IMG/VR virus record: IMGVR_UViG_3300028399_000031
Location: 1-22,348 of that record
Length of the DNA stretch: 22,348 bases
Source: a virus
Reading direction: 5' to 3' (one strand)
This document shows, in pieces, positions 2,740 to 21,589 of the stretch; positions within the stretch are counted from its first letter, which is position 1, and each line of letters starts with the position of its first letter. A program made the translations under genes and the position numbers. A model generated the notes under the pieces. That model was not told the origin of the DNA and did not search any database. It saw nothing but the letters and a program-made list of their open reading frames with translations.

Positions 2740-5252
2740 GACTCGCGCAGAACATCACGGTCCGGGTCGGCGCAGACATCACGGGTTACCGCGCGGGGCT
2801 CAATCGCGCGGTGTCCGAGACGCGGGCCGCCGGCGCCCGGTTCCGCGCCGCATTCGGGTCACTCCGCCGGAATGCGACCATCGCGGGGACGGCGATCGCC
2901 GCGACCTTTGGCGCCGCGACCGCTCTCGCGGTCAAGTCGGCGACCACCTACGAGAAATCGCTCGCGGAAATCTCGACGCTCGTCGATTCGACCCGCGGCG
3001 AAATCGCCGCGATGGGCGACGCGCAACGCGAGCTCGCGGTTGAGTTCGGGACCGACATCGCCTCGCAGCTCAAGGGCACCTATGACGCGATCTCCGCCGG
3101 CGTGACCGACGTCGCGAATGCGACCGAGCATATGCGCGTTGTGAACAAGGCGGCGACGGCCGGAATCACCGACACGGCGACCGCCGGCGAGGGATTGATC
3201 CGCGTCATGAGCGCCTACTCGAAGCAGGGGACGACGGCGGCTCAGGCGTCCGACCTCCTGTTCACGATCGTCCGGAAGGGCGTCACGACGTTTAAGGAAT
3301 TGGCGCCGAATGTCGGGCGTCTCGCGTCGGTCGCCGCGGCCGCCGGCGTCTCGATGGAGGAGATGGGGGCGGCGCTGGCCACCGCGACGAAGACGGCGAG
3401 CACTCCAGAGGCGATCGTCCAGGTCGCGCAGCTCATTTCCGCCATCGTCAAGCCGGGGGTCCAGGCGGCGAAGGCGGCGGACAAGCTCGGTCTCGAGTTC
3501 GGCGCCGTCGCGCTATCGACCAAGGGACTCCTCGGCGTCATGGACGACCTACGTGAGAAGATCGGCGCGTCGACCGCGAAAGAGCTGGCGCGGCTCTCGG
3601 CCGAGGGAGCGGAGACCTCGGTCATCTTCGATCGCATGGCGGCGGCGACCGGGCTCAACGTCGAGCAGGTCGCGCAATTGTTTCCGAATGTCCGCGCACT
3701 CCGCGGCGCGCTCGCTCTCATGGCGAACGATGGGCGAACGGTCGCGGATAATCTGGAGGCGATGAAAGAGGCGACCGGCGCGACGGACGCCGCGTTCGCG
3801 AAAATCGAGCGGACCGGCGCCAAGTCATTCGACAAATTGAAGGCGACGATAACGGACCTCCGCATTGAGATCGGACAAGCGCTCGCACCGGCGGTCCTCG
3901 GTCTCGTCGAACGCATCCGCCCGGCGGTGCGCTCGGTCATCGCGTGGGTCAAGGCGAATCCGAAGCTCGCGGGGACGATCGCCTCGGTCGTCGTCGGGAT
4001 CACGGCGGCGGCCGCCGCGGCGGCGGCGCTCGGATTCGCGCTCACCGGAATCGGCGCCGTCGTCGGAGTCGTCACGTCGGCATTCGCTCTACTCTCCGCC
4101 GGTCTCGCGGTGTTCACGGGTCTGCCGCTCCTCATCTTGGCGCCGCTCGCTCTCGTCGCCGCCGGGGTCGCCGCGGTCGTCATCGATTTCGTCGATCGAG
4201 TCGGCGGGATTCGGAACGCATGGGACATCGTTTCGGCAGCAGTGATCGCGACGGCGCGCTCCGTCGTGGATTGGTTCCGCGCGAATTGGCCGAGGATTCG
4301 AGAGGTAGTCGTAGGAGTCATTTCGACAGCATGGACGCTCATTCGTCCAATAGTTCATGCAATCGCGTCGGTCACAAAAGAGATTGTTGGAGGACTGATA
4401 TCATACATTCAGAATAATTGGCCATTGATCTCTGACACGTTTAATGCTGTCTGGAAACTCGTTCGATTTGCATGGGAAAACATAGGACAACCGGTGTGGG
4501 ACGAGGTTGAGCGAGCTGCACAGGCGACGTTTGACGCGGTAACGAAAGCACTCCGAGGCTTCGGTAAGATCATCGGTGGGTTGTTGAAGGTCGCGATGGG
4601 CGCAATCACTGGTGACTGGAAAGCGTCTTGGGATGGGATAAAGGACATTGCGACAGGAACATTTGACATTATCGAGTCCGCATGGGATCTAATGTGGTCA
4701 GGAATAAAATCGATCGCCAGTAGATCCGGAGACATTCTATCTGACATTTGGGAGTTTATTTGGGGAGGCATCAAGTCGAGTTTTCAGACCATCGTCGACG
4801 GCATCGTTTCGATCTTTCAGGGCGCATGGGAGACGATTACCGGGCTCGTGCAATCGATCGTCACGGCCGGCAATTCTGTGGCATCATTCCTCGGCGGCGG
4901 TGGTCTCGGATTCTCGCTCCCGGGGTTCCAGTTCGGCGGGCTCGTGGGAGGTCGACCGGGGGTCGACCGGAATATCGCGGCGCTCTCCCGTGGCGAGTTC
5001 ATCGTCAATTCCGACGCGACGGCGGCATTCCTCCCGCTCCTCGAAGCGATCAACGCGATGCCGTCGGGGGGGCGTTCAGGATCCGCTCCGGCTACGGGCT
5101 CTGCCGGCGACGTCCTCCGCTTCGGCGACGTCCGCCTCGAGCTGCCGGGAATCGACGCTCTCGATCAACGTGGCGTGTCCCGACTCTCGAATGAGCTCGC
5201 GCGGCTCGGATCGTCGAGGACCGCCCGGACGAATCGGAGGACGCTTCGATGA
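2736..5252 (+). CDS. Tape measure protein (TP901-type)
   Basis: This protein spans the tail tube and sets its length. From ATA at 2736 it has 838 residues; from the first conventional start, GTG at 2811, it has 813. The longer form is preferred because the skipped residues (NITVRVGADITGYRAGLNRA) look like a conserved tape measure N-terminus. Residues about 70-280 resemble the TP901 core (YEKSLAEISTLVD, then ATAGITDTATAGEGLIRVM). Residues about 410-485 are a long hydrophobic Ala/Val/Leu membrane-like stretch. Residues about 525-690 are Trp-rich repeats (IRENW-, AWDLMWSGIKS-, IWEFIWGGIKS-like) encoded by a conspicuously AT-rich segment. The stop overlaps the next ATG by 4 bases. Confidence 0.88.
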   Translation: MGLAQNITVRVGADITGYRAGLNRAVSETRAAGARFRAAFGSLRRNATIAGTAIAATFGAATALAVKSATTYEKSLAEISTLVDSTRGEIAAMGDAQRELAVEFGTDIASQLKGTYDAISAGVTDVANATEHMRVVNKAATAGITDTATAGEGLIRVMSAYSKQGTTAAQASDLLFTIVRKGVTTFKELAPNVGRLASVAAAAGVSMEEMGAALATATKTASTPEAIVQVAQLISAIVKPGVQAAKAADKLGLEFGAVALSTKGLLGVMDDLREKIGASTAKELARLSAEGAETSVIFDRMAAATGLNVEQVAQLFPNVRALRGALALMANDGRTVADNLEAMKEATGATDAAFAKIERTGAKSFDKLKATITDLRIEIGQALAPAVLGLVERIRPAVRSVIAWVKANPKLAGTIASVVVGITAAAAAAAALGFALTGIGAVVGVVTSAFALLSAGLAVFTGLPLLILAPLALVAAGVAAVVIDFVDRVGGIRNAWDIVSAAVIATARSVVDWFRANWPRIREVVVGVISTAWTLIRPIVHAIASVTKEIVGGLISYIQNNWPLISDTFNAVWKLVRFAWENIGQPVWDEVERAAQATFDAVTKALRGFGKIIGGLLKVAMGAITGDWKASWDGIKDIATGTFDIIESAWDLMWSGIKSIASRSGDILSDIWEFIWGGIKSSFQTIVDGIVSIFQGAWETITGLVQSIVTAGNSVASFLGGGGLGFSLPGFQFGGLVGGRPGVDRNIAALSRGEFIVNSDATAAFLPLLEAINAMPSGGRSGSAPATGSAGDVLRFGDVRLELPGIDALDQRGVSRLSNELARLGSSRTARTNRRTLR

Positions 5253-5683: not shown

Positions 5684-8600
5684 ATGCCGCGCGGTTTGCC
5701 GTGGACGAATCACACAAACGCGACGGGCGAGCGTCCGGTGTTCTACGCCGACATGGTCCTCGATCATCAAACCGTCTCGCTCGGTCTCTACGACCTCCTC
5801 CCGGGTCCGGTGCAGGGCCGGGTCAAGCGGTGGGCGCCGCTCAAGTATCAGCAGCGAGGCGGGCAAGATTCGATCCGTCTCAGTCTCACGAATGCGCCGA
5901 GCTCCGCGCTCGGTAAGGCGATCCGGTGCCAGGGCGGGGGAGCCGCCGCGGCGCGCGACGGGTCGTTCGCCTATTGGCTTCCGAGCTCTGGGACGCCGTT
6001 CGGCACCGGCACCGACGACCACGCGTTCATGGTCATCATGCGCGCGTGGTCAATCGAGGATCTCGACTCCGCCGGCGCCATCCTGGCGTTCAAGAAAAAC
6101 CATTTCCGATTCATCCTCAAGCCGGATGGCTCGATAACTCTGGAGTTCGACAACGGCGGCGTCTGGTCTGTCGTCACGACCGACGCGGCGGGACTCTCCG
6201 ACGGCGAGCTGTTCTCGATCGGATTCTCGCACGCCGCATCATCGGGCCAGGTGACCTATTTTCGCCGATCGGATTCCGGCGACCTCGTCGGGACGCCGGC
6301 TCGATTCACACCGGCCGGAGCGAGCGGCGCGCATCCGATCGTCTTCTCCGGCGATTCAGACGGCGCCATCGCCAACGCCGGGACGGAGGGCCGATTCCCG
6401 ACGTGGCTCGACGTGGACGAGCCGAGATGGTGGAGCCGGACGCTCACGTCGTCGGAGTTCCAGGCGGCTGCCCGGCGCACGCTCAAGCCGAGCGAGGCGA
6501 ACGACTCCTCGCTCGTCGCATGGACGCGATTCGACGAGGGGACCGGCACGACGTCGGCGGTGAGCTCGCAGACCGGCGCGAGCATCACCGCGACCTTGAC
6601 GGCGGACAACGGCGACGGCGTGTTCTCGCCGGCGCTCACCGCTCCGGAGTGGATCTCCGGGATCACGCGCGATCGGATCACCGATCACATGGAGGCTCTC
6701 TATCCGATCGAGGGCGCGCTCGTCCGTATCTGGATCGCATTCAGCGACCCGGTCGCGACGACGCCGGTCAAGCTATTCGAGGGGGTCGTCTCCGAGGTCA
6801 TCCAGGCCGACCGTCGATCGATCGAGCTCGACGTCCGCGACGTCTCGGAGCGCGCCGACCGCCTCATCGGGACCGTCGTCGATAAGACGACATGGCCGGA
6901 TGCGCCAGAATCGAGCGTCGGAAAAATCATCCCGCTGGTTTTCGGCTCCGTCACCGATCTCCCGGGGCTCCGTCTCTCAGAGGCAAAGCGCACGCGGCTC
7001 AGGGCCTCGGTCCTCACCGCGTCGACGTCGATCCCGGTGGACGACACGACCGGATTCCCGACGTCTGGGACCATCCTCGTCGACGAGGAGCAGATCGACT
7101 ACACCGGGACGACCTCGGATTCGTTCACCGGAGTGACCCGCGGCGCCAACGGCACGATCGCGACGTCGCACGTCACCGGAGCGCAGGTCACGGAGGTACG
7201 CTCGGAGGTCTACGCGTTCGCCGACCACGCCGTGACAGCACTCACCAACGTCCGCAAGCTCAACAGCCGGGGCGAGGCCGTCCCGGTCGATGCGGCGGAC
7301 ATCACGATCGCGACAACGCCGCGGGCGACGGTGACATTCACGCGACCGCCTCGCGTTGACATCCGCGGCGAAGGATCGCTATGGCTCTCGATCGGAACCG
7401 AGGAGCCGTTCACCGGGCCACCAGGACCGGGGGGGGCGATTAATTCGGTGTTCGAGGCGGAGAAGGCGTGCGAGCTCAACGCCGCTTGGACGGAGACTAA
7501 CTTCGGAATCCAATCGCAACCGGGACAGGATTTCTTGGTCGTCCGGCGCACCTCCGATTTTGACGGGCCGGTCCCGGCGTCCGGCGTCCTCAAGGCATAT
7601 GTCGTTTACGAGCATCACGGCATCGACCCGGTGACGACGTTTCCAGCGATCACGGCATCACTCACCCAAAGCGGCGTCCTCTTGCTCCCGCTGGGGACTC
7701 TGGTCTCAACGAACACAACTCCGGACCGCGCTCTACAGCAGGGCGCATTCTTCACGGAGGCGGCCGGATTCGAGGGAGCGCATCAGCACCAGATACCGGG
7801 GTCGCTACATGATCACCTCGTCGGGCAGCCGGAATTGTCGACGATCATCCGACCGGTGTCTGGACCGAAGCAATATGCGACGCCGAGCGGCTGGTCGGTC
7901 TCCGCGCTGGGCGTCAATCCGTACAATCAGCCGCAAGGCACATTGGCTCCGCAATACACTGCGACGCAATTTTTCTTGCGGGATTCACTCAACTATACCG
8001 CCGATGGATCAGTCGACACATTCGACGCGATCCTCAGTTCGCCAACTCCGCCACCGACAACGGCGACAGGTGTCTATTCGTTCGGCAATCTCAGCCGGAC
8101 CAACCGACAGATCAAGCGCGTGCGTCTCGTCGCAGTCGTCTCGGGCCGCGCCGACCTATACGAGATTGAGTTTTCGATTCGTGGACAAGCCGTCGCGACG
8201 ATCCCGGTTGGCTCTATGTCAGCGCTCGGCAATGGAACGAGCGCCCGCACGACCTATGTGTCGTCGGTCGTTGATCTCACGCCGTCACAATTCGCGCTCG
8301 TGGAATTGCTGCGGCCGGACTCTCTCATTCGCATCACCGCTCCGGGAGGCCAGACGGTCTCAGGGCAAGAGCTCGAATTATGGGAGGTCTACGTCGAGAC
8401 CGAGCTCGATTCGACCGCTCCATCGACTCGCATCGTCCGACCGACCTATGACAACTGGATCAAGGCCCTCGAAGGATGCCGCGACGGACGGATCGAGACG
8501 TTCGAGCCATCAACGTATTGTGCTCATATGACGCTGCAGAACATCCCGGGAGGCCCGTCGGTCCCGTCTGGATTCAACCGGTGGCTCATCAACCCGAATC

Positions 8601-10372
8601 CTCCTGTCAACGGTCCAGACTGCCCGTTTTCGACGCTCACGCAGCCGACGCTCCGGTTCTATTTCACCGACCTCGACGAGCCGTTCGCTCGACTCAAGTC
8701 GGCGGCGATTATCATCGCACACAACAACGGGTTCGACTCGGGCCCGCCGTCTCTCATCGCTCCACAAACGGTTCCGCTCAATTTCATTTCCCCACCGCCT
8801 CCCGGTGGATTCATTCAATCGGATCCCGGATTTGTCATCGACTCGACGAGTGGCGCGCCGTTGTCGCCGCGCTACCTCGTGCGGTTGGTCCTCCGTGGAG
8901 TCCAGGTGGCGGCGTTCGACTTCTCTCTCGACATGAGCGATGCAGTCGTTCCTGTGGACTATGACGGATGGGCCTCGGGGCGCTGGCCTATGCAGCGGTC
9001 GTTTGTGCAGGAGCTTCCGTTCACTTGGGCGCAGCCGGGCCCGATCTATTTCGGCGCCGGCACGACTTTGACGCGTGGCGATCCGCGCGTGGAAAGCTCA
9101 AGCGGATGGCAGAATCTCGCGGGTCTCGCGCCAGGCGGTGGGGACTACCAAGTCTCGGACCTCATCGGGAATGCGGGAGACTCTTATATCGAGATCATCA
9201 TGCCGCCACCGACGCCGTCAACCAACGTCGATGCGATTTCCTCGGAGCACACAAACCCGGGAAGCGATCCGAATTACACGGTGCAAAATCCGCTGTATCA
9301 TCACATCGGGTCAATGTGGACGCCGCGACTCTTCGACGTCCGCATCGAATACTATGCCGAGGAGTTCCAAGACGAGGCGCAAGATGAGGACACCGGTCCG
9401 ACCGACGCGCAGGACGCGCTGTCCCATTCGTCGTTGACATGGTTCGACGTGACGTCCTCGTGGCTACTCATCAATTCATGGAACGCGTTCGTCGACCTCG
9501 GCGTCGAGTTCGCGGCGGGTCCGATCGTCGCCATGCAGGACAAGCACGTCAAATATCTCCGGGTTAACTCGATCATCGAGTTCGGGGTCGTCGGGCAGGA
9601 AGACACCAACCGAATCATCGCCGACGTCGACTCGGGCGACGGCGGAAACCCGATCGACCATGTGGAGCGCATCTTCGACGACTACATCGGCGCCGCCTAC
9701 AAAGATTCGAGCGCATTCGCGACGGCGAAGACGCTCGCGCGCACCGACGCCGCGGGCGTTCTCCTCGAACAGAAGAAGGCGAGCGAGGTCATCGACTCCA
9801 TCCTCACTCAGTATTCATTCTCGTGGTTCTGGGAAAACGGGCTTTTCGTTCCGCTATTCAAGCCGGCGCTGTCATCGATCTCCGCGGGGTCGCCGACGCT
9901 CGACGAGGACGCGATCGTTCGCGATTCGCTCTCGATCTCGCGCACGCCGCAAGACGAGATCATCAATGATGTCGAGGTCTTGTGGGGTCCGAATTATGTC
10001 GACGGTGATTTCACCGGTTCGACCGACGCGAAGGCGTGGACGGACCGCGAGCAAGCGGAGTCCGCGACATCGAAAACGGCATATTCGGCGACCAAGAAAC
10101 GCGTCGTCGAGGCCGACTGGATCGTCACCGCATCGGCGGCGCTCGCATATCGCGACAACATTCTCGACTACCTGGACCACGCGGCAACCGTGCTCCGGTG
10201 GTCGACCTATCTCAACGGGCTCGACGTCGTGCGCGGCGACGTCGTCGACATTTCGCACGAATGGAGGTCGACCAACAAGGTCGAGGTCGTCGAGCTCTCC
10301 ATCAACCCGGGCGGGCGGGACAATCCGCCGACGATCGAGTTCGTCGGCATTGACCGAAACGATGCACCATAG
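5684..10372 (+). CDS. Giant tail-tip / hub protein with LamG-like domain
   Basis: The 1562-residue protein is the likely central tail-tip component and host-recognition factor. Residues about 90-295 look like a LamG/concanavalin-type beta-sandwich (HAFMVIMRAW, FILKPDGSITLEF, PRWWSRTLTSSEFQAAAR, SLVAWTRFDEGTG). Residues about 320-430 carry a hub-like segment (DVSERADRLIGTVVDKTTWP, GKIIPLVFGSV). Residues about 440-500 have a motif common in phage tail proteins (TTGFPTSGTILVDEEQIDYT, then FTGVTRGANGT). Residues about 1336-1562 return to hub-like sequence ending in ISHEWRSTNKVEVVELS. The middle, about 600-1320, is unrecognised, of lower GC, and includes HQH...HDH near residue 700. The start follows a G8 run that may act as the ribosome site. 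No peptidoglycan hydrolase motif was seen. Confidence 0.75.
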   Translation: MPRGLPWTNHTNATGERPVFYADMVLDHQTVSLGLYDLLPGPVQGRVKRWAPLKYQQRGGQDSIRLSLTNAPSSALGKAIRCQGGGAAAARDGSFAYWLPSSGTPFGTGTDDHAFMVIMRAWSIEDLDSAGAILAFKKNHFRFILKPDGSITLEFDNGGVWSVVTTDAAGLSDGELFSIGFSHAASSGQVTYFRRSDSGDLVGTPARFTPAGASGAHPIVFSGDSDGAIANAGTEGRFPTWLDVDEPRWWSRTLTSSEFQAAARRTLKPSEANDSSLVAWTRFDEGTGTTSAVSSQTGASITATLTADNGDGVFSPALTAPEWISGITRDRITDHMEALYPIEGALVRIWIAFSDPVATTPVKLFEGVVSEVIQADRRSIELDVRDVSERADRLIGTVVDKTTWPDAPESSVGKIIPLVFGSVTDLPGLRLSEAKRTRLRASVLTASTSIPVDDTTGFPTSGTILVDEEQIDYTGTTSDSFTGVTRGANGTIATSHVTGAQVTEVRSEVYAFADHAVTALTNVRKLNSRGEAVPVDAADITIATTPRATVTFTRPPRVDIRGEGSLWLSIGTEEPFTGPPGPGGAINSVFEAEKACELNAAWTETNFGIQSQPGQDFLVVRRTSDFDGPVPASGVLKAYVVYEHHGIDPVTTFPAITASLTQSGVLLLPLGTLVSTNTTPDRALQQGAFFTEAAGFEGAHQHQIPGSLHDHLVGQPELSTIIRPVSGPKQYATPSGWSVSALGVNPYNQPQGTLAPQYTATQFFLRDSLNYTADGSVDTFDAILSSPTPPPTTATGVYSFGNLSRTNRQIKRVRLVAVVSGRADLYEIEFSIRGQAVATIPVGSMSALGNGTSARTTYVSSVVDLTPSQFALVELLRPDSLIRITAPGGQTVSGQELELWEVYVETELDSTAPSTRIVRPTYDNWIKALEGCRDGRIETFEPSTYCAHMTLQNIPGGPSVPSGFNRWLINPNPPVNGPDCPFSTLTQPTLRFYFTDLDEPFARLKSAAIIIAHNNGFDSGPPSLIAPQTVPLNFISPPPPGGFIQSDPGFVIDSTSGAPLSPRYLVRLVLRGVQVAAFDFSLDMSDAVVPVDYDGWASGRWPMQRSFVQELPFTWAQPGPIYFGAGTTLTRGDPRVESSSGWQNLAGLAPGGGDYQVSDLIGNAGDSYIEIIMPPPTPSTNVDAISSEHTNPGSDPNYTVQNPLYHHIGSMWTPRLFDVRIEYYAEEFQDEAQDEDTGPTDAQDALSHSSLTWFDVTSSWLLINSWNAFVDLGVEFAAGPIVAMQDKHVKYLRVNSIIEFGVVGQEDTNRIIADVDSGDGGNPIDHVERIFDDYIGAAYKDSSAFATAKTLARTDAAGVLLEQKKASEVIDSILTQYSFSWFWENGLFVPLFKPALSSISAGSPTLDEDAIVRDSLSISRTPQDEIINDVEVLWGPNYVDGDFTGSTDAKAWTDREQAESATSKTAYSATKKRVVEADWIVTASAALAYRDNILDYLDHAATVLRWSTYLNGLDVVRGDVVDISHEWRSTNKVEVVELSINPGGRDNPPTIEFVGIDRNDAP

Positions 10373-11508: not shown

Positions 11509-11754
11509 ATGGTCCGATCCACCCATAACCCGCGCGAGCTCGGTCGGCTCATTTCTACGCATCGCCTCGCGGCCGGATTGTCGCGCCGACAATTGGTCGA
11601 GCGCGTCAATGAGCTCGACGGGTCCATCTCGTATCGCCATTTATCCCGCATCGAGGCGGGCACCGCTCCGCCTCCTCGTCTCGACCGCATCATTCGCATC
11701 GCGCGCGCGCTCGAGGTCGACGTGGCGCAGCTCATCCCGGAGGCATCCCCATGA
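11509..11754 (+). CDS. XRE-family helix-turn-helix regulator
   Basis: The 81-residue protein is nearly all one XRE/Cro-CI-type DNA-binding domain. Residues about 10-75 contain ELGRLISTHRLAAGLSRRQL, then ISYRHLSRIEAGTAPPPRLD and RIIRIARALEVDVAQLIPE, the usual five-helix pattern with recognition helix and SRIEAG turn. There is no Shine-Dalgarno site. The start codon abuts a palindrome, and a -10-like CATAAT ends 6 nt before the ATG, so the mRNA may be leaderless. The gene lies between late and DNA-metabolism genes on the same strand, suggesting a self-regulated switch between the two blocks. It has no separate oligomerisation or cleavage domain. Confidence 0.8.
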   Translation: MVRSTHNPRELGRLISTHRLAAGLSRRQLVERVNELDGSISYRHLSRIEAGTAPPPRLDRIIRIARALEVDVAQLIPEASP

Positions 11755-13031
11755 CAGAAAAGAGGACAGGGCTCATCGTGACGTCGAGCGCGAAGGCGCC
11801 GGCGCTACGATCGTCAGAATCAGACCGAATCGTCACGCGCGGAGGAGCGCTCGCCCGGACGGTCGATAAGGTGCCGCTCCGCATGTCGAAGAAAGAGCTA
11901 TTCACGCTCGATCGCGGCAAGACGTTCACCATCACGGCCGAGGGTTTCCGCACGCTCAACGCGGCGTCCGGCATGACCATCGTCGATGCGCCAACGGTCG
12001 TCGTCGACGGGATCGAGCAACCGAACCCGTGCGTCAAGAAGGACGACGCGACGGGCAAGATCACCGACGTCTGGATTCGCAAGGGGATCGTCGGGCGGTC
12101 GACGAACGGGAACGTCCTCGTCCTCACGCAGACCATCCACTATTCGCCGCGGCTCTACTTCCTACGCGACCTCTTCAACCTCGTGAAGATGGGTCAGCGA
12201 TGGCGGAAGAACCCGAGCACCGGCAAAAATGAGAAGGTTTCCGATACCGATTGGTCCGAGCACGGCCGGCTCGTGCCAATTGCCCGTCTCGATTCGATCG
12301 AGCTCGCGGACCATGAGGCGGTTTATCCGCTCGACGAGACCGTCGCCATCGTGGCGAATCTCATGAGCTCCGACGTCGCGGCGGTCATCGCGACGCAGAA
12401 CGAAAACCAGATTTTCGCCGTCCGCAAGGCGGCGACGATCTGCGAGCGGCGACTCTGCCAGGCGCATCCGGGTTTTCCGAGGCAGACGATCCAGGGCATC
12501 GGCAACGATGCGGTCACGATCACATGGGACGATCCGGGGTCGAAGTACGCGAAGCCGGTCGAGGCCGTGGCGTATCTCGATGTCATGGGGTGGGTCGAGA
12601 ACGCCGACGCTCAACGTGAGGCGCTCCGGGCGGCGGCACAGTTCGAGGCCGGAGAGTCCTCGCTCGATGCCCACCTCGTCGATCTCGGCGAAGTGTCCTC
12701 ATCGACTGTGGAGGAGCCGGTCGAGAAGGTCGTCGACGTCCAGGCGACGGTGACGACGAAGGAAGAGGAGACGACGTCTGCGGATGTCGTCGACGATGGC
12801 CCGCGCCTCAAGCTGATCGAGCAGGGGCGCGAGATGGCCGAAGAGCTCAAGCGGCGCCAGGGCGGCGAGGAGAAGGTGCGCGCGCTCTCGCGTGAGCTCC
12901 TCGGTCCGCTCGCATTCGAGGACAATGACGAGGACTCGCTCCGCGCATTCATTTCGGCTGTGTCGTGTGCGATCGACGCGGACGACGAAGGGCAGGGCGC
13001 ATTATTCGGAGGTGGCGACCATGAGGATTGA
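11751..13031 (+). CDS. Possible ssDNA-annealing/recombination protein (uncertain)
   Basis: I do not firmly recognise this 426-residue protein. Residues about 40-290 form a mixed domain, with HYSPRLYFLRDLFNLVKMGQRW and later RKAATICERRLCQAHPGF. The latter vaguely resembles the 'KAqt.a.R.al..HP' helix found in several phage single-strand annealing protein families. From about 300 onward it is low-complexity and acidic, ending in a charged helical region and the acidic, glycine-bearing tail GALFGGGDHED, which recalls the protein-binding tails of ssDNA-binding proteins. It precedes and overlaps by 11 bases an SMC-like ATPase gene, so a DNA recombination or repair role fits the context. GGAGG lies upstream of the ATG. 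Confidence 0.4.
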   Translation: MTEKRTGLIVTSSAKAPALRSSESDRIVTRGGALARTVDKVPLRMSKKELFTLDRGKTFTITAEGFRTLNAASGMTIVDAPTVVVDGIEQPNPCVKKDDATGKITDVWIRKGIVGRSTNGNVLVLTQTIHYSPRLYFLRDLFNLVKMGQRWRKNPSTGKNEKVSDTDWSEHGRLVPIARLDSIELADHEAVYPLDETVAIVANLMSSDVAAVIATQNENQIFAVRKAATICERRLCQAHPGFPRQTIQGIGNDAVTITWDDPGSKYAKPVEAVAYLDVMGWVENADAQREALRAAAQFEAGESSLDAHLVDLGEVSSSTVEEPVEKVVDVQATVTTKEEETTSADVVDDGPRLKLIEQGREMAEELKRRQGGEEKVRALSRELLGPLAFEDNDEDSLRAFISAVSCAIDADDEGQGALFGGGDHED

Positions 13032-15093
13032 GCGCGTACATCTGGATTCGTTCATGGGGTCGACGACGACGCTCGACATCCCGGCGCGGACCGTGCTCGC
13101 CGGCCCGAACGGGTGCGGCAAGACGCGAGTTGTGCGCGCGATCACGATCGCGATTACGGGGGTCGACCCGGCACTCGGCAAACGCGGCATCATGACGCTC
13201 GCGAGCGCCCGGTCCATGCGAGTCGGCGTCGACTGTATCGGAGTCGACGACCGGCGGTTCGCGATCTCGCGCCGATTCACGTCGACGGACAAAGGGACCG
13301 TCAAAGAGGAGCTCCAGATCGCTCCCGACACGGGAGAGCGCGGGCTCCGGGCCCGCGACGCGAAGATCGCCGAGGTGCTCGGGGGCGCGATCTTGTTCGA
13401 CCCGGATGAGTTCTTCGGATTTTCGCCGGCGAAGCGCGCCGCCTACCTCGCATCGATCGGCGCCGGCGCCGACGCGATGAGTCTCGAGGAGTTCCTCGAA
13501 GCCATTGCGCCGCCGTCATGCGAGGCCTGGGCGGACGTCCTCGCGCCTCTCCGGTCGGCGTGGAATCCGACGGCGCCGCCGTCCGCAAATCTCGCCGCGT
13601 CGAACGCGGTGATCGCCTCCGCGGTGTCATCGGCCGCGGCGGCGAAGAAAGAGGCCGAACAGGCTCTCAAGCGACTCATGGACAAGCGCTCGACCATGCA
13701 AGTCGCGCTCGGAAAGTCCGCCGCCGACCTCGGGGCGGAACGCGCGAAGCTCCGCGAGCAAGTCGAGGAGCTGTCGGCGACTCTCGCCGCCGACACCGAG
13801 CGGCGGCGACAAGTCGAGTCCGTGCAGCAACAGGCGCGCGCCGCCGACCGAGATGTCGACAAGGCGCGCCGGAAGATCGAGAAATGCGACGACGTCGTCA
13901 GTGGAGCCAAGAAGGTTCTCGCTGAAATGGAGGAGGCCGCCGAGCTCGCGCGGGCCAATCGAAGCACCATCGAGCCGCCAGATGATCCGCCGCGGGACGA
14001 ATCCGCCATCGAGGCGGCGCTCGAAACAAAATCTCAAGCGCGCGCGGAGGCCGACGCAGCAGACAAGCTCCTCCGGGGATTGTGCTCCCGACGGGATCGA
14101 GCGGGAGAGAGCGGCTCGTTCGCATGTCCGATCTCGTCTGGTCTCGATTGCCCGGCCGGCGACACGGTGCGCGCGAATCTTGCGGAGGCCATCGAGGCCG
14201 CGCTCACAGACTACGAGACGAAGGTCCAAGAGGCGGACCGGACCGCGCAGGAATATGAGGCGATCATGGCGCGCGAACATGAGCGCGCGATTCGCCGAAG
14301 CGAGTATCGAAAACAGGTCGCTCAAGCCGTCAAGGCGGAGCGGAAGGCCGTTGCCGACGCCGAGCGAAAAGTCGAGATGGCGCGGGCCGCGCTCGCCACA
14401 GCGGAGGCCGAACGCGCGGCCGCGGATGAGGCGCTCCGAGATGCGCTCGCGCGGCAGAAGGACGCGCGCAAGCGCGAGACCGAGGCACCAGGCGTCATCG
14501 ACACGAGCGAGACCGAGAAGCTCGTGGCGGCGACAAGGGAGAGGATCGCCGACATCGATGAGGCGATCGCCGCGGCCGAGAGGGTCCGCGCGATCGATGA
14601 GGAGATCCTACACGCGGAGGCCGCGGCCGCGGCCGCGCGTGAGTCCGCGTCGACGCTACGCGGCGTCGCGAAGACCGCGAAGTCCGTCACAGGCCGGGCG
14701 CTCTCCGACTCGATGCGGCCGCTACTCGATACCGTCGAACAGCTCCTCGCTGGCGTGCGCCCAGGCTGGGCTCTCGAAGCCGTCGCGGTCGAGGGCGGAA
14801 TCAACATCATGGCGCGGACATCCGGCGAGACTCTCATACCGTGGCGCGCGCTCTCGGGCGGCGAGTCCGCGATCTTCACAGCGGCTCTCTCGCTTGCCAT
14901 CGTGCGGCTCGTCGATCCACCGGCGAAGCTCCTCCTCCTGGAGGCGGCGGAGGTCGACGGGCCGAATCTCGACGCATTCCTCGCAATCCTCGGCGAGCTA
15001 GGATCCGAGTTCGACTCGATCGTCGTCGCATCATGTCACGCGGCGTCGGTCCCGGATGGGTGGTCTCTCATCGATCTCGGAGCAACGCGATGA
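13021..15093 (+). CDS. SMC/Rad50-like coiled-coil ATPase
   Basis: The product is 690 residues from ATG 13021, preferred over an upstream in-frame ATG at 12892 because the ATPase fold begins at MRIERVHLDSF and GGAGG lies just before it. Walker A is GPNGCGKT (28-35, Lys34). Two long Ala/Glu/Arg-rich coiled coils (about 195-350 and 395-560) flank a hinge with CPISSGLDCP (Cys369 and Cys377). The ABC signature LSGGES is at 611-616. The Walker B region is KLLLLEAAEVD (636-646), with Leu where Asp is usual but Glu641 kept. Such ATPases act in DNA end processing and recombination. A partner nuclease of the SbcD/Mre11 type is not present in the window. Confidence 0.8.
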   Translation: MRIERVHLDSFMGSTTTLDIPARTVLAGPNGCGKTRVVRAITIAITGVDPALGKRGIMTLASARSMRVGVDCIGVDDRRFAISRRFTSTDKGTVKEELQIAPDTGERGLRARDAKIAEVLGGAILFDPDEFFGFSPAKRAAYLASIGAGADAMSLEEFLEAIAPPSCEAWADVLAPLRSAWNPTAPPSANLAASNAVIASAVSSAAAAKKEAEQALKRLMDKRSTMQVALGKSAADLGAERAKLREQVEELSATLAADTERRRQVESVQQQARAADRDVDKARRKIEKCDDVVSGAKKVLAEMEEAAELARANRSTIEPPDDPPRDESAIEAALETKSQARAEADAADKLLRGLCSRRDRAGESGSFACPISSGLDCPAGDTVRANLAEAIEAALTDYETKVQEADRTAQEYEAIMAREHERAIRRSEYRKQVAQAVKAERKAVADAERKVEMARAALATAEAERAAADEALRDALARQKDARKRETEAPGVIDTSETEKLVAATRERIADIDEAIAAAERVRAIDEEILHAEAAAAAARESASTLRGVAKTAKSVTGRALSDSMRPLLDTVEQLLAGVRPGWALEAVAVEGGINIMARTSGETLIPWRALSGGESAIFTAALSLAIVRLVDPPAKLLLLEAAEVDGPNLDAFLAILGELGSEFDSIVVASCHAASVPDGWSLIDLGATR

Positions 15094-15275
15094 AAGTCTA
15101 TCGAATCTGGTTCGAGGGAGTGTCGGAGAGCGAGATCGTCGAGGCGGAGACGTTCTCGCACGCGCTCCAGCTCTGGCACGATGCGATGAGAGAAGAGCTC
15201 GAAGATGATTACGATCCGGACTATGAGCCGGACATGGTCGAGCTCCTCGGCGAAGGCCCAGTGATACGACCATGA
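15090..15275 (+). CDS. Small acidic protein between ATPase and helicase genes
   Basis: This 61-residue protein starts at an ATG overlapping the ATPase stop (ATGA) and ends overlapping the helicase start (ATGA). The N-terminus (KVYRIWFEGVSESEIVEAETFSHALQLW) suggests a beta-beta-alpha unit, followed by an acidic segment (REELEDDYDPDYEPD). The fourfold-base context and tight coupling on both sides indicate it is translated with its neighbours. No family is recognised; it could be an accessory to the ATPase or helicase. Confidence 0.55.
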   Translation: MKVYRIWFEGVSESEIVEAETFSHALQLWHDAMREELEDDYDPDYEPDMVELLGEGPVIRP

Positions 15276-17047
15276 GCGCGACGCGCGCCACCGACGAGCA
15301 GGCGGCCGCGATCAACTCCACGCATCGATATCGCGTGATCGTCGCGCATCCCGGGACCGGCAAGACGTTCACGCTCGCGCGAATCGTCGGCGAGCTCGTC
15401 CGGAGATTCCGGACACCGGAGGCCGTGACCGCCGTCACGTTCACTCGCAACGCCGCGGCCGAGCTCCGCGACCGCATCGCCGGAATCGTCGGCGAACGCG
15501 ACGCGCGCCGCATTCACATCGGAACATCGACCGCCATCGCTCTAAAGATTCTCCGGTCGAAGCCGTCGGCCTACGGATATCCCGACGAGATCACGGTCTA
15601 TGACGACACCGACGCGGCGGATGTTCTCGATGATATCCGCGTCCGATTGGGTCTCGATCACAAAGTCTCGACCAAGCGGGCCCGAGAATTGATCGAGGCC
15701 AAGCGGCGAGGCGAACCGGGAGAATGGACGCGCGAAGAAGAGCGCCTCACATCCGAATACGTCGAGACACTCCGGCGCGCCGGCGCCGTCGAGGTCGCCG
15801 AGATCATCGACCGCGCCGTCTGGCTCATGGCTCACGACGCCGACGTCCGCGATCGATTCCAATATCGCGCCCGGTGTCTCGTCGTGGACGAATACCACGA
15901 CACCGCGCCGAATGAGCGCGAGCTCTACCGCGTCCTCGATCCGCGCGAGGTCGTCATCGTCGGCGATCCGAATCAGGAGATTTACGGATTCCGAGGCACG
16001 TCAAATCAGTTCCTCTTGGGCGCCGCGGCGGACGAGGCATCGGAGGTGCATATCCTGTCGAGGTCGTTCCGCTCCGATCGGGCGATCGTCGCCGCCGCGC
16101 GGAATCTCATCGCGCGAAACCCGGCGCAACCCGACCGCGCGATCGAGGCCCGGCCCGGCGCCGCGCCCGGCGCCGTCCACGCCCGACGCTTCACCGCGTG
16201 GCCCGACCACGACGAGGCCATCGTCGAGATCGTCCGCGGCGCCTCGCACCGCGGCGAGTCCTCCGCCGTCCTCGTCCGCACGAATCGCGAGGTCGCACTC
16301 ATCATCCGCGCGATCCGCGCCGCCGGCGTCGAGGTCGTCCCGCTCTCGTCCGAGCGGTCGTTCCTCGCGCTCTCCGAGGTCCGGCTCTATCACGCGATGA
16401 TCCGCGCGGCGATCAACCCGCGCGACGAGATCGCCGCCCGTCTCGTCATGGACGCCGACCCGGATCTGCCGCGATGGAGGTCGCCCGACGGATTCACCGC
16501 GCGAATCGCCGCCCGACAGAACGACCAGGCCGTCCTCGACGTCGTCGGATGGACCGACCAGCACTCGATCGACGATCCGGGCGCCTACGCCGATCAGGCG
16601 CGGCGTGAGATCGTCGAGCGGTACGAGGGCGACGGATTGCATACCCGGGCGACGAATGTCGAGGAGGCGGCGCTCAGGGCCGCTCAGTGGCTCGACGATC
16701 ATCCCGGCGAGGGGCTCACCGAATATCTCGACTCGATCACCGCGATCGAGCTCGGCGACATGACGGCGCCCGATGAGACGATCCCCAGGGTGGGCACGGC
16801 TCACGCGGCGAAGGGGCTCGAGTTCGACGTGGTCGTCGTCGCCGGCATGGTCGATGGCTCGTTCCCGCTCGCGCCGCGACGCGATGCCGACCCGGTCGCT
16901 CATCTATGGGAGGAGCGGCGGTTGTTCTATGTCGCCGCAACTCGCGCGAGGCATACGCTTTACGTCATGTCTTGCACGCCGCCCGACGACCCGCGGAGAC
17001 AGGTCGTCTCTCAATTCGTCGGCGAGATGTTGACGCCGCCGACGTGA
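15272..17047 (+). CDS. UvrD/Rep-family SF1A DNA helicase
   Basis: The 591-residue protein contains the helicase motifs in order: a Q-motif-like TDEQAAAIN (7-15), motif I AHPGTGKT (25-32, Lys31), motif Ia VTFTRNAAAELRDRI, motif II DEYHD (206-210, where DEYQD or DEFQD is more usual), motif III GDPNQEIYGFRG (about 231-242), motif IV SRSFRSD, motif V TAHAAKGLEFD (about 509-519) and motif VI RRLFYVAATRARHTLYV (about 549-565). It unwinds DNA using ATP. It is shorter than cellular UvrD/PcrA, mainly through reduced accessory subdomains. It is translationally coupled to the small acidic gene and lies in the SMC-like ATPase operon, suggesting a shared role in phage recombination or replication. Confidence 0.9.
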   Translation: MSATRATDEQAAAINSTHRYRVIVAHPGTGKTFTLARIVGELVRRFRTPEAVTAVTFTRNAAAELRDRIAGIVGERDARRIHIGTSTAIALKILRSKPSAYGYPDEITVYDDTDAADVLDDIRVRLGLDHKVSTKRARELIEAKRRGEPGEWTREEERLTSEYVETLRRAGAVEVAEIIDRAVWLMAHDADVRDRFQYRARCLVVDEYHDTAPNERELYRVLDPREVVIVGDPNQEIYGFRGTSNQFLLGAAADEASEVHILSRSFRSDRAIVAAARNLIARNPAQPDRAIEARPGAAPGAVHARRFTAWPDHDEAIVEIVRGASHRGESSAVLVRTNREVALIIRAIRAAGVEVVPLSSERSFLALSEVRLYHAMIRAAINPRDEIAARLVMDADPDLPRWRSPDGFTARIAARQNDQAVLDVVGWTDQHSIDDPGAYADQARREIVERYEGDGLHTRATNVEEAALRAAQWLDDHPGEGLTEYLDSITAIELGDMTAPDETIPRVGTAHAAKGLEFDVVVVAGMVDGSFPLAPRRDADPVAHLWEERRLFYVAATRARHTLYVMSCTPPDDPRRQVVSQFVGEMLTPPT

Positions 17048-17087: not shown

Positions 17088-17954
17088 ATGTCGAGACGGC
17101 GCCAATTCGTCAAGGTGTACGGAGAGGATCTCCGGACGAGCTCCCGGTTCCGCCGCCTCGGTCATGCCGCTCAGGGCGTCTATTTGAAGCTCCTCACGAT
17201 GATCGCCGACCAGGACGGGCTCGTCTATGCCTACTCCGACGGCGGATTCCTCAAGCCGTACACCGCGCACGAGCTCTCCGCGGAGATGTTCGTCCCGCGG
17301 TCGACGCTCTCCCGGGCGATCGAGCGATTGACCCGCGAGGACTGCCGGCTCGTCGTCGCCGTCGACCCGGGGCCGTTCGTCATCGACGGCGGCACGCCGT
17401 TGCGATACCACGCCGACACCGGCGGACTCGGCGTCCTCTGGATTCCGCGATTCTCCGAAAAGTCCGGCCGCGCCGACATCGAGCGCCGCGGCAAAACCCG
17501 GACGCCGCCCGCTCGCCGCCGCCTCCGATCGCTCGTCGCCGAGGCGCTCGCGACGCCGAAAACCGCCCAAAATCACGACGCCGAGCAGGCGATCGAATCA
17601 CACTTAGGAGACCGGAATCCGACCGGTTTTCGTCCATATGGACACAAACCGGACGAAACCCGGACGGATTCCGGGCGCACCGACGTAGACGCCGCAACGA
17701 CTTACGATCGGTCATTGCCGGACAAGAAACAGAATCAGAAACAGATAGACGCACGGCGTCACAACGACCGTAAGTCGTCGAAGCCGAACGTCACCACCGA
17801 CGGGCTGTCGGACGCGTCGATCCGCAAGCGCATCGACGACCTCGCCGCGGCGATCCGCGCAGGGTCGACCGGCGACGAGCTCGCCGAATGGACCGAGCTC
17901 ATCCGTGAGCGGTCGCGGCGCCGTGCGGCGTCGACCTCGGAGGTCGTCTCTTGA
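17088..17954 (+). CDS. Replication-initiator-like protein with N-terminal winged helix
   Basis: The 288-residue protein begins with a winged-helix-like domain (residues about 1-130): FVKVYGEDLRTSSRFRRLG, then GVYLKLLTMIADQDGLVYAY, VPRSTLSRAIERLTREDC and a wing segment ending GVLWIPRF. The pattern of a 'plant-pathogen/replisome-organizer' type N-terminus followed by a long disordered, charged linker (about 135-245) and a helical C-terminus is common in phage replication initiators of the lambda O or DnaD-like kinds. The linker DNA holds a dense set of repeats resembling an origin (see 17612-17778). The start is supported by GGACGGAG upstream. A transcriptional regulator remains possible. Confidence 0.6.
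   Translation: MSRRRQFVKVYGEDLRTSSRFRRLGHAAQGVYLKLLTMIADQDGLVYAYSDGGFLKPYTAHELSAEMFVPRSTLSRAIERLTREDCRLVVAVDPGPFVIDGGTPLRYHADTGGLGVLWIPRFSEKSGRADIERRGKTRTPPARRRLRSLVAEALATPKTAQNHDAEQAIESHLGDRNPTGFRPYGHKPDETRTDSGRTDVDAATTYDRSLPDKKQNQKQIDARRHNDRKSSKPNVTTDGLSDASIRKRIDDLAAAIRAGSTGDELAEWTELIRERSRRRAASTSEVVS
17612..17778. other. Repeat cluster, candidate replication origin inside the initiator gene
   Basis: The stretch contains a perfect 10-bp inverted repeat CCGGAATCCG (17612-17621) / CGGATTCCGG (17665-17674); a nested 30-bp palindrome with 15-base arms and two mismatches centred on GTCCATATGGAC (17623-17652); adjacent repeats AAACCGGACG and AAACCCGGACG (17646-17666); an A-rich pair AGAAACAGA (17725-17733 and 17737-17745); and a perfect pair ACGACTTACG (17697-17706) / CGTAAGTCGT (17769-17778). 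Repeats next to an A-rich segment inside an initiator gene match the lambda-type origin plan. Function is inferred. Confidence 0.45.
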
Positions 17955-18355
17955 GCCGGCGCGTGCGATTCTCCGACCGGGCCGACGAGGTCGCGTTTTG
18001 CATCGCCCACCATCCCGACTATCGAGACCTCCGGCACGTCTGCCGGGAGTACCGATTCGACAAGACGCGCCGATGGAGGTTCGATCTCGCGTGGCCGGCG
18101 CTCAGGATCGCCGTCGAAATCCACGGGGGCACCAGGTCGGCCCGAGGCCGTCGCAATTCGCACGCCGGACCGAAGGGGCTCCAACGCGACCTCGAGAAGG
18201 CCCGGGGGGCGCTCTTTCGAGGATGGCGCCTCCTCGCCTACACCGATCTCGACCTCGAGGAGCACGGGGTCGCGCTCATCGTCGACGAGGTGCGACGCCT
18301 CCGCGATGGGACAAGTGCAAATGACCACGAAACCAAGGAGGGAAGTCCCGAATGA
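17951..18355 (+). CDS. Vsr/DUF559-like PD-(D/E)XK endonuclease
   Basis: The 134-residue protein has the compact core REYRFDKTRRWRFDLAWP, then RIAVEIHGGT, KGLQRDLEKARGALFRGWRLLAYT. This is the arrangement of Vsr/DUF559-type nucleases widespread in phages. Likely catalytic residues are Asp45 and Glu56, with His58 in place of the lysine of classic PD-(D/E)XK enzymes, as seen in Vsr-like branches. It starts with TTG overlapping the previous TGA, and GGAGG at 17939-17943 lies exactly 7 nt upstream, so TTG is well supported. A branched-DNA or nicking role in replication or recombination is plausible from its position after the initiator gene. Confidence 0.75.
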   Translation: MSRRVRFSDRADEVAFCIAHHPDYRDLRHVCREYRFDKTRRWRFDLAWPALRIAVEIHGGTRSARGRRNSHAGPKGLQRDLEKARGALFRGWRLLAYTDLDLEEHGVALIVDEVRRLRDGTSANDHETKEGSPE

Positions 18356-20550: not shown

Positions 20551-20756
20551 GGGTCGACAAGGATCGCATGAGGGCGCATCTTGAGAGCGCCGATCCTGTT
20601 TCGTTCGCGTCCACGGTCGCCGATGCGCTGAATGAGATGGATGCGCGGATCGAGAGAATCGAGCGAAGTGGGGTAACCGAGGTGGATCGGTTGCGGAGGA
20701 TCCTCAGACGCATTCAGGAGATGGCGCGAAAGGCCCTAGGGGAGGCCGGCGAATGA
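20547..20756 (+). CDS. Short coiled-coil protein related to its upstream neighbour
   Basis: This 69-residue protein contains FASTVADALNEMDARIERIER and ends VDRLRRILRRIQEMARKALGEAGE. Both stretches line up with the neighbouring 117-residue protein (FAEIEDRIEKLER and IRDLVEIVEKLARLGKGGAGS), with about 40 middle residues missing. A tandem duplication followed by internal loss would explain this, although short coiled coils can also resemble each other by chance. ATGA overlaps join it to both neighbours. Confidence 0.5.
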   Translation: MRVDKDRMRAHLESADPVSFASTVADALNEMDARIERIERSGVTEVDRLRRILRRIQEMARKALGEAGE

Positions 20757-21589
20757 GCACAGCGTTGACGACGCATCCAATGACCGAGAAGAACCTCGTC
20801 GACATGATTCGGCGGCGCTACTCATTGCCCGAGTGGGCTACATTTGATCAAGTCCGCAACGCGACGGGGGCGATGCACGATCGGACCATCGACGTCTTCG
20901 CCATCAACTGCTACCCGTCGTCACGCATTCGGTACATCGCGTGCGAGGTCAAGGTTGATCGCGCTGATTTCCGCCGAGAGCTCGACCAACCGGAGAAACG
21001 CGAGGCATTCGCAAAGCTCGTGAACGAGTTCTGGTATGTCGCGCCGCGTGGCGTCATCCCGGCCGCAGAGGTGCCGGACGGATGCGGACTCCTCGAAACA
21101 TGGGGCCAGGACAAGCTCCGCGCCACGATTCGGGCGCGGCAAAACCTCGACAACCATCCCGACGAGTTTCTATGGATCTCGCTTGCGCGCCGCATGTCCG
21201 AGACGATGCAGGACGCGAGACATCGGTCGAAGGTTTTCGCGGAATGGCGCGGCAAGTCGATTTCGATCGACGATCTACGCCGCCTCGCAAGTAAGCTCGG
21301 AATGGATCGAGACGTGCAGATCCGGGCCGAGATGATCGCTCACGAAATGCGCCGGGCCGCGAAGAAAACCGCGAAGCAATGGATCGCGCAGAACCACTTC
21401 GTCCTCCGAGACGTACAACGAGCCGTCAAGGCCGATCTCGGAAAGGGATACTATGAGGCGGTCGAGGCCGGCGAAATCGCGGAATGGCTCCGGAGAAAGA
21501 CCATGAGCGACAAGCTCGCCGGGCTCGCATCGGATTTGCGACGTTGCGCCGACTGGATCGACCAGGTTACGGAGAGAGATAGATCATGA
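20753..21589 (+). CDS. MmcB-like PD-(D/E)XK nuclease-fold protein
   Basis: The 278-residue protein carries a nuclease-like core: RTIDVFAINCY, then RYIACEVKVDRADFRREL, PEKREAFAKLVNEFWYVAPRG. The likely active-site set is Asp47, Glu65 and Lys67 (D...ExK). 'EVK.sRaDF..el..PeKr' followed by 'YvaP.g' is typical of MmcB-like DNA repair and related phage nuclease-fold proteins. The C-terminal half (about 150-278) is helical and basic (RRAAKKTAKQWIAQN), possibly DNA-binding, and is not recognised. A role in phage DNA processing or host DNA attack is possible. Confidence 0.65.
   Translation: MSTALTTHPMTEKNLVDMIRRRYSLPEWATFDQVRNATGAMHDRTIDVFAINCYPSSRIRYIACEVKVDRADFRRELDQPEKREAFAKLVNEFWYVAPRGVIPAAEVPDGCGLLETWGQDKLRATIRARQNLDNHPDEFLWISLARRMSETMQDARHRSKVFAEWRGKSISIDDLRRLASKLGMDRDVQIRAEMIAHEMRRAAKKTAKQWIAQNHFVLRDVQRAVKADLGKGYYEAVEAGEIAEWLRRKTMSDKLAGLASDLRRCADWIDQVTERDRS

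Follow-up and report, generated by a model that had tools for sequence, protein, structure and literature searches.

Does the gene that follows the helicase in the viral record IMGVR_UViG_3300028399_000031 carry the replication origin of its own phage? The window is the whole of this record: 22,348 bases, with a GC content of 0.64. It is a complete IMG/VR entry that is classed as linear and is probably a fragment. A preliminary description of this DNA drew attention to repeats in the low-complexity linker of a putative initiator and proposed that they form a lambda-type origin. Judging from the sequence, the linker-coding part of this gene very probably does contain the phage's origin: the syntenic counterparts of the gene are initiators, their linkers are enriched in repeats, and an AT-rich stretch often follows. 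This gives a concrete candidate, of ~150 bp, for a phage that has no close relative.

Tail genes occupy the left part of the record (Table 1). To their right, a run of plus-strand genes encodes p426, a SMC/RecF-like ATPase, a UvrD/Rep-like helicase, the putative initiator, a phrog_503 protein, and then small proteins.

Table 1. Features of the 22,348-nt window and of the candidate origin.
Feature	Position	Strand	Comment
Tape measure (tail gene)	2811-5252		Left part of record
Tail or virion protein	5684-10372		1562 aa; left part of record
Small HTH protein	11509-11754		Phage HTH gene
p426	11751-13031	+	Conserved protein of unknown function (phrog_32428); cassette member
SMC/RecF-like ATPase	13027-15093	+	Cassette member
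UvrD/Rep-like helicase	15272-17047	+	Cassette member
Putative replication initiator	17088-17954	+	ORF of 288 aa; directly behind the SMC-helicase cassette
phrog_503 protein	17951-18355	+	Followed by small genes
Core inverted repeat, left arm	17612-17635		22/24 complementary to right arm
Core inverted repeat, right arm	17651-17674		22/24 complementary to left arm
Unit L2	17614-17624	-	GGTCGGATTCC; 11 bp
Unit L1	17625-17635	-	GGACGAAAACC; 11 bp
Dyad centre	17636-17639		ATAT, between both sets of units
Unit R1	17640-17650	+	GGACACAAACC; 11 bp
Unit R2	17651-17661	+	GGACGAAACCC; 11 bp
Unit R3	17662-17672	+	GGACGGATTCC; 11 bp
Weak outer inverted pair	17697-17710 / 17765-17778		13/14; flanks the AT-rich stretch; possibly chance
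AT-rich stretch	17722-17751		A-rich; candidate unwinding element; GC 0.37; AGAAACAGA twice

The putative initiator has no recognizable family. Direct searches of IMG/VR, GTDB genomes, and INPHARED found no homologs, which leaves no close relative in which conservation of the repeats could be seen. The protein does not match any family from Pfam or PHROG at E ≤ 0.001 or from NCBIfam at E ≤ 0.1. Its sub-threshold matches are to helix-turn-helix proteins (MarR_2, E = 0.004, and the DnaD-like loader phrog_8489, E = 0.56), and these hint that the N-terminal domain is probably a winged helix. AlphaFold without an alignment gave a poor and uninformative model (pLDDT of 43 for the whole protein and 42 for the N-terminal part). 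The predicted architecture is an N-terminal domain, a low-complexity linker, and a short helical C-terminus; the last comes from low-confidence models only. Residues 136-288 do not match a DnaD-like or DnaB_2 C-terminal domain, and among the downstream proteins that we tested, we did not recognize a DnaB or a DnaC/P-like loader.

We assigned the gene as an initiator by synteny. Direct searches of IMG/VR with p426, the SMC protein, or the helicase did not identify any relatives, nor did searches of INPHARED with the SMC protein or p426, so we gathered relatives with a profile of the helicase. This gave 80 IMG/VR loci, ~45 of which contain the SMC ATPase. Most of those ~45 loci have p426 as well, and the order p426 - SMC/RecF-like ATPase - UvrD-like helicase is maintained. 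The cassette resembles a replication/recombination module. The loci that contain it (L008-L087) span 30-69% GC, and very different initiator genes lie downstream. For 19 relatives, we picked the initiator-like gene downstream of the helicase by eye from the translations, before the repeats were examined. All 19 genes match PHROG families for replication initiation, replisome organizers, DnaD-like loaders, or O-like proteins; the candidate gene's own matches are sub-threshold. In every one of these loci, the initiator or DnaD/O-like gene is next to the cassette or within ~3 kb of it.

One of the fetched loci, L059, is the only one with counterparts (at 8247-9050 and 9474-9815) of both the phrog_5429 “DNA repair protein” (20753-21589 in the window) and the phrog_503 protein, which points to a closer kinship with this record. 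No recognizable initiator adjoins the helicase in L059.

Within the gene, the core inverted repeat has a score of 18, which is the highest in the record (the runner-up has a score of 13). Of 200 dinucleotide shuffles of the entire record (22.3 kb), one matched this score. None of 1,000 synonymous recodings of the gene, which followed the codon usage of the record, did so, and 1 of 1,000 synonymous permutations within the gene did. The preliminary description had noticed two parts of this structure, and both are present: a perfect 10-bp inverted pair (CCGGAATCCG, at 17612-17621 and 17665-17674), which is the outer end of the 24-nt core repeat, and a nested palindrome around CATATG, centered at 17637/17638, with 13 of 15 positions paired. 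It had overlooked the composition of the core: five 11-bp units that run outward from ATAT, of which the minus strand has two and the plus strand three.

Units R1-R3 are in frames 0, 2, and 1, and the peptides that they encode are unlike each other, so the units do not stem from a repeat in the protein. Taken alone, the periodicity of 11 bp carries moderate weight (18 of 24 lag matches, which was reached by 15 of 1,000 permutations). Together, the recodings, the reading frames, and the record-wide shuffles indicate repeated units, resembling initiator sites, that are independent of the protein sequence. The record does not contain a second comparable cluster of units, and the best single matches elsewhere in it are isolated.

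On the 3' side of the units, at a distance of 48 bp, is the AT-rich stretch, whose coding strand is rich in A. Outside of the tail genes (in the record's non-tail half), no other 25-30 bp are as AT-rich, and the stretch is among the most AT-rich 1% of the gene. The A-rich duplication of AGAAACAGA that had been described is found here, with copies at 17725 and 17737. Given its composition and its position next to the repeats, this stretch is a candidate for opening of the DNA.

We infer the following mechanism from this arrangement. The initiator would use its N-terminal (probably winged-helix) domain to bind the five units of the inverted 2+3 array. With their spacing of about one helical turn, the units would line up the copies of the initiator along one face of the double helix. 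This complex would then strain and open the A-rich stretch, and the opened strand would receive the replicative helicase via a loader from the host or the phage.

To see if relatives have similar repeats, we compared each gene from 18 cassette loci and from this record to its own synonymous permutations. We considered direct or inverted repeats to be beyond permutation if they were at least 3 above the best of 20 permutations. Such repeats were found in 12 of 19 initiator genes (including the one from this record) and in 2 of the 137 remaining ORFs (Fisher p ~1.5e-11). These remaining ORFs come from mechanical calling, and some may not be genes. Without this record, the proportion was 11/18 (p ~1e-10). 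As positive controls, the repeats of lambda O were reached by 0 of 100 permutations and those of 80-alpha gp20 by 1 of 100, so that gp20 nearly passes. Even lambda O would fail the strict criterion, which makes 12/19 a conservative count. For instance, L012 has five 12-bp copies and an inverted repeat, L064 has 12-bp copies, and L014 has 16-bp copies.

In most of these genes, the repeats lie after the N-terminal domain, at residues ~90-165; in L045 they are near residue 226, and in this record they are at 175. Most relatives, like lambda, have an AT-rich stretch after the repeats, with a median rank in the top ~1% of the gene (the limits of the arrays in this comparison were partly set by eye). 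Most relatives have direct iterons, and an inverted set is not the rule. The sequence comparisons show that the putative origin-in-initiator layout, known from lambda and SPP1, recurs among numerous phages that have the cassette in common but are otherwise unrelated. Repeats that survive synonymous permutation pick out the initiator genes within loci and could serve as a general origin finder. If origins lie in the initiator's linker across diverse phages, then this rule would allow prediction in unculturable metagenomic phages.

In L080, an initiator-like gene contains an 18-nt direct repeat (GGGGGTGACTCTCTGTCA, with a spacing of 22) at 6880-6990, along with long runs of G and C. The run of C may have an effect on the reading frame at the end of this contig.

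Could the repeats have another explanation? They might be a by-product of an RNA hairpin in the initiator's mRNA that controls its translation or stability. The predicted fold is quite stable (-40.8 kcal/mol, z = -6.4; 0 of 200 shuffles were equally stable), but any 24-bp inverted repeat would yield such a fold. Also, the hairpin would be in the middle of the gene and lacks a run of U, most relatives have direct repeats at this location so that the common feature is repeated DNA and not a stem, and the AT-rich neighbor would be left unexplained. We consider the hairpin improbable. Initiators often regulate their own expression as well, and the units could instead be autoregulatory sites of the initiator, or operators for a repressor or other regulator such as the small HTH protein, with no origin involved. 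A dyad of repeated units would suit a dimeric regulator, and a phage HTH gene is present. However, the sites are ~525 bp inside the gene rather than at a promoter; no comparable cluster is found elsewhere in the record; and in relatives, repeats recur in the initiator genes and hardly in other genes. A purely regulatory role is very improbable.

Finally, the repeats could have arisen by chance or by mutation, such as when DNA is duplicated locally in inverted orientation, in a linker that is free of constraint. The linker is relaxed and of low complexity, two of the listed items (the distant 11-mer pair and the outer inverted pair, both discussed below) are near chance expectation, and one of the whole-record shuffles did reach the core score. 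In contrast, none of the synonymous recodings did, and the coincidence with an AT-rich stretch, the position in an initiator gene, and the enrichment in relatives speak against chance. We give this explanation very little credence, and we prefer the reading that the repeats belong to an origin.

How does the candidate origin compare to known ones? The lambda origin lies in gene O, and binding by the initiator, opening of A-rich DNA, and loading of the helicase are established for it (PMC5043065, PMC4488673). As is proposed for the window, the lambda origin is located where the initiator gene encodes the linker, it has repeated sites with dyad symmetry (in lambda, within each site), and an A-rich stretch lies 3' of them (PMC5043065, PMC4488673). 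But lambda has four iterons of 18-19 bp that run in one direction, instead of five 11-bp units (2+3) that run in opposite directions and share one dyad. Also, we did not find homology to O or to O-like families, and we did not recognize a P-like gene. So, “lambda-type” holds as an analogy of layout and fails as a claim of family membership.

SPP1 oriL is within gene 38, and an origin mechanism is established for gp38 (PMC6316719). For ORF20 of 80-alpha, an origin in the gene was inferred from genetics (PMC5499656). Both resemble the candidate in having repeats and an AT-rich unwinding element in the gene for a replisome organizer (PMC6316719, PMC5499656), with the likeness of SPP1 taken from the publication. 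Furthermore, relatives of the cassette carry genes for DnaD-like proteins and replisome organizers. In contrast, the putative initiator has no significant match to their families, the DnaD-like or DnaB_2 C-terminal domain of a replisome organizer of the SPP1 G38P type was not recognized in it, and its repeats are inverted. The DnaD-like gene of L042 (IMGVR_UViG_2840572291_000001) is downstream of the same cassette and has 11-bp units (CCGAACTAATG), with an A-rich repeat after them. Unlike in the window, those units all run in one direction and have another sequence, the GC content is 37%, and the protein has a C-terminal DnaB_2 domain.

An origin within the initiator gene is already a known kind; what is unusual here is the inverted 2+3 arrangement of the units. 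We are doubtful that one-turn units in this arrangement around ATAT represent a distinct origin layout, used by an initiator lineage without recognizable relatives. If they do, then the DNA would perhaps open at the dyad, or helicases would be loaded in both directions.

An extreme of GC skew at the candidate origin, which the preliminary description had suggested looking for, is not seen: the cumulative maximum is at 15242, and the minimum is at the start of the record. Because the record is a linear fragment, the skew is neither for nor against an origin here.

All of the repeats that had been listed are present, and they vary in significance. The outer 10-bp pair (17697-17706/17769-17778) extends to 13 of 14 positions over 14 bp, yet ~10% of the gene's synonymous permutations match its score of 11, so by itself it is not significant. 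Similarly, the 11-mer AAACCCGGACG does occur at both 17494 and 17656, with AAACCGGACG adjoining the second copy, but such a distant pair is near chance expectation: the record has 24 11-mers that occur again within 200 nt. The claim that repeats are denser here than in neighboring genes is borne out by the core inverted repeat and the AT-rich element, and not by each of the listed items.

A search with the DNA pattern of the units matched L002, which has ~4 tandem copies of GGACGGAATCC, nearly identical to unit R3, on the minus strand at 8066-8110. These copies are intergenic, between terminase-like and acetyltransferase-like genes, in a phage that is apparently unrelated. We rejected this match as not homologous. 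Within the window, a lone partial unit (CGGCAAAACCCGG, at 17489-17504) lies ~120 bp 5' of the array; it is near chance expectation and could be an outlying site.
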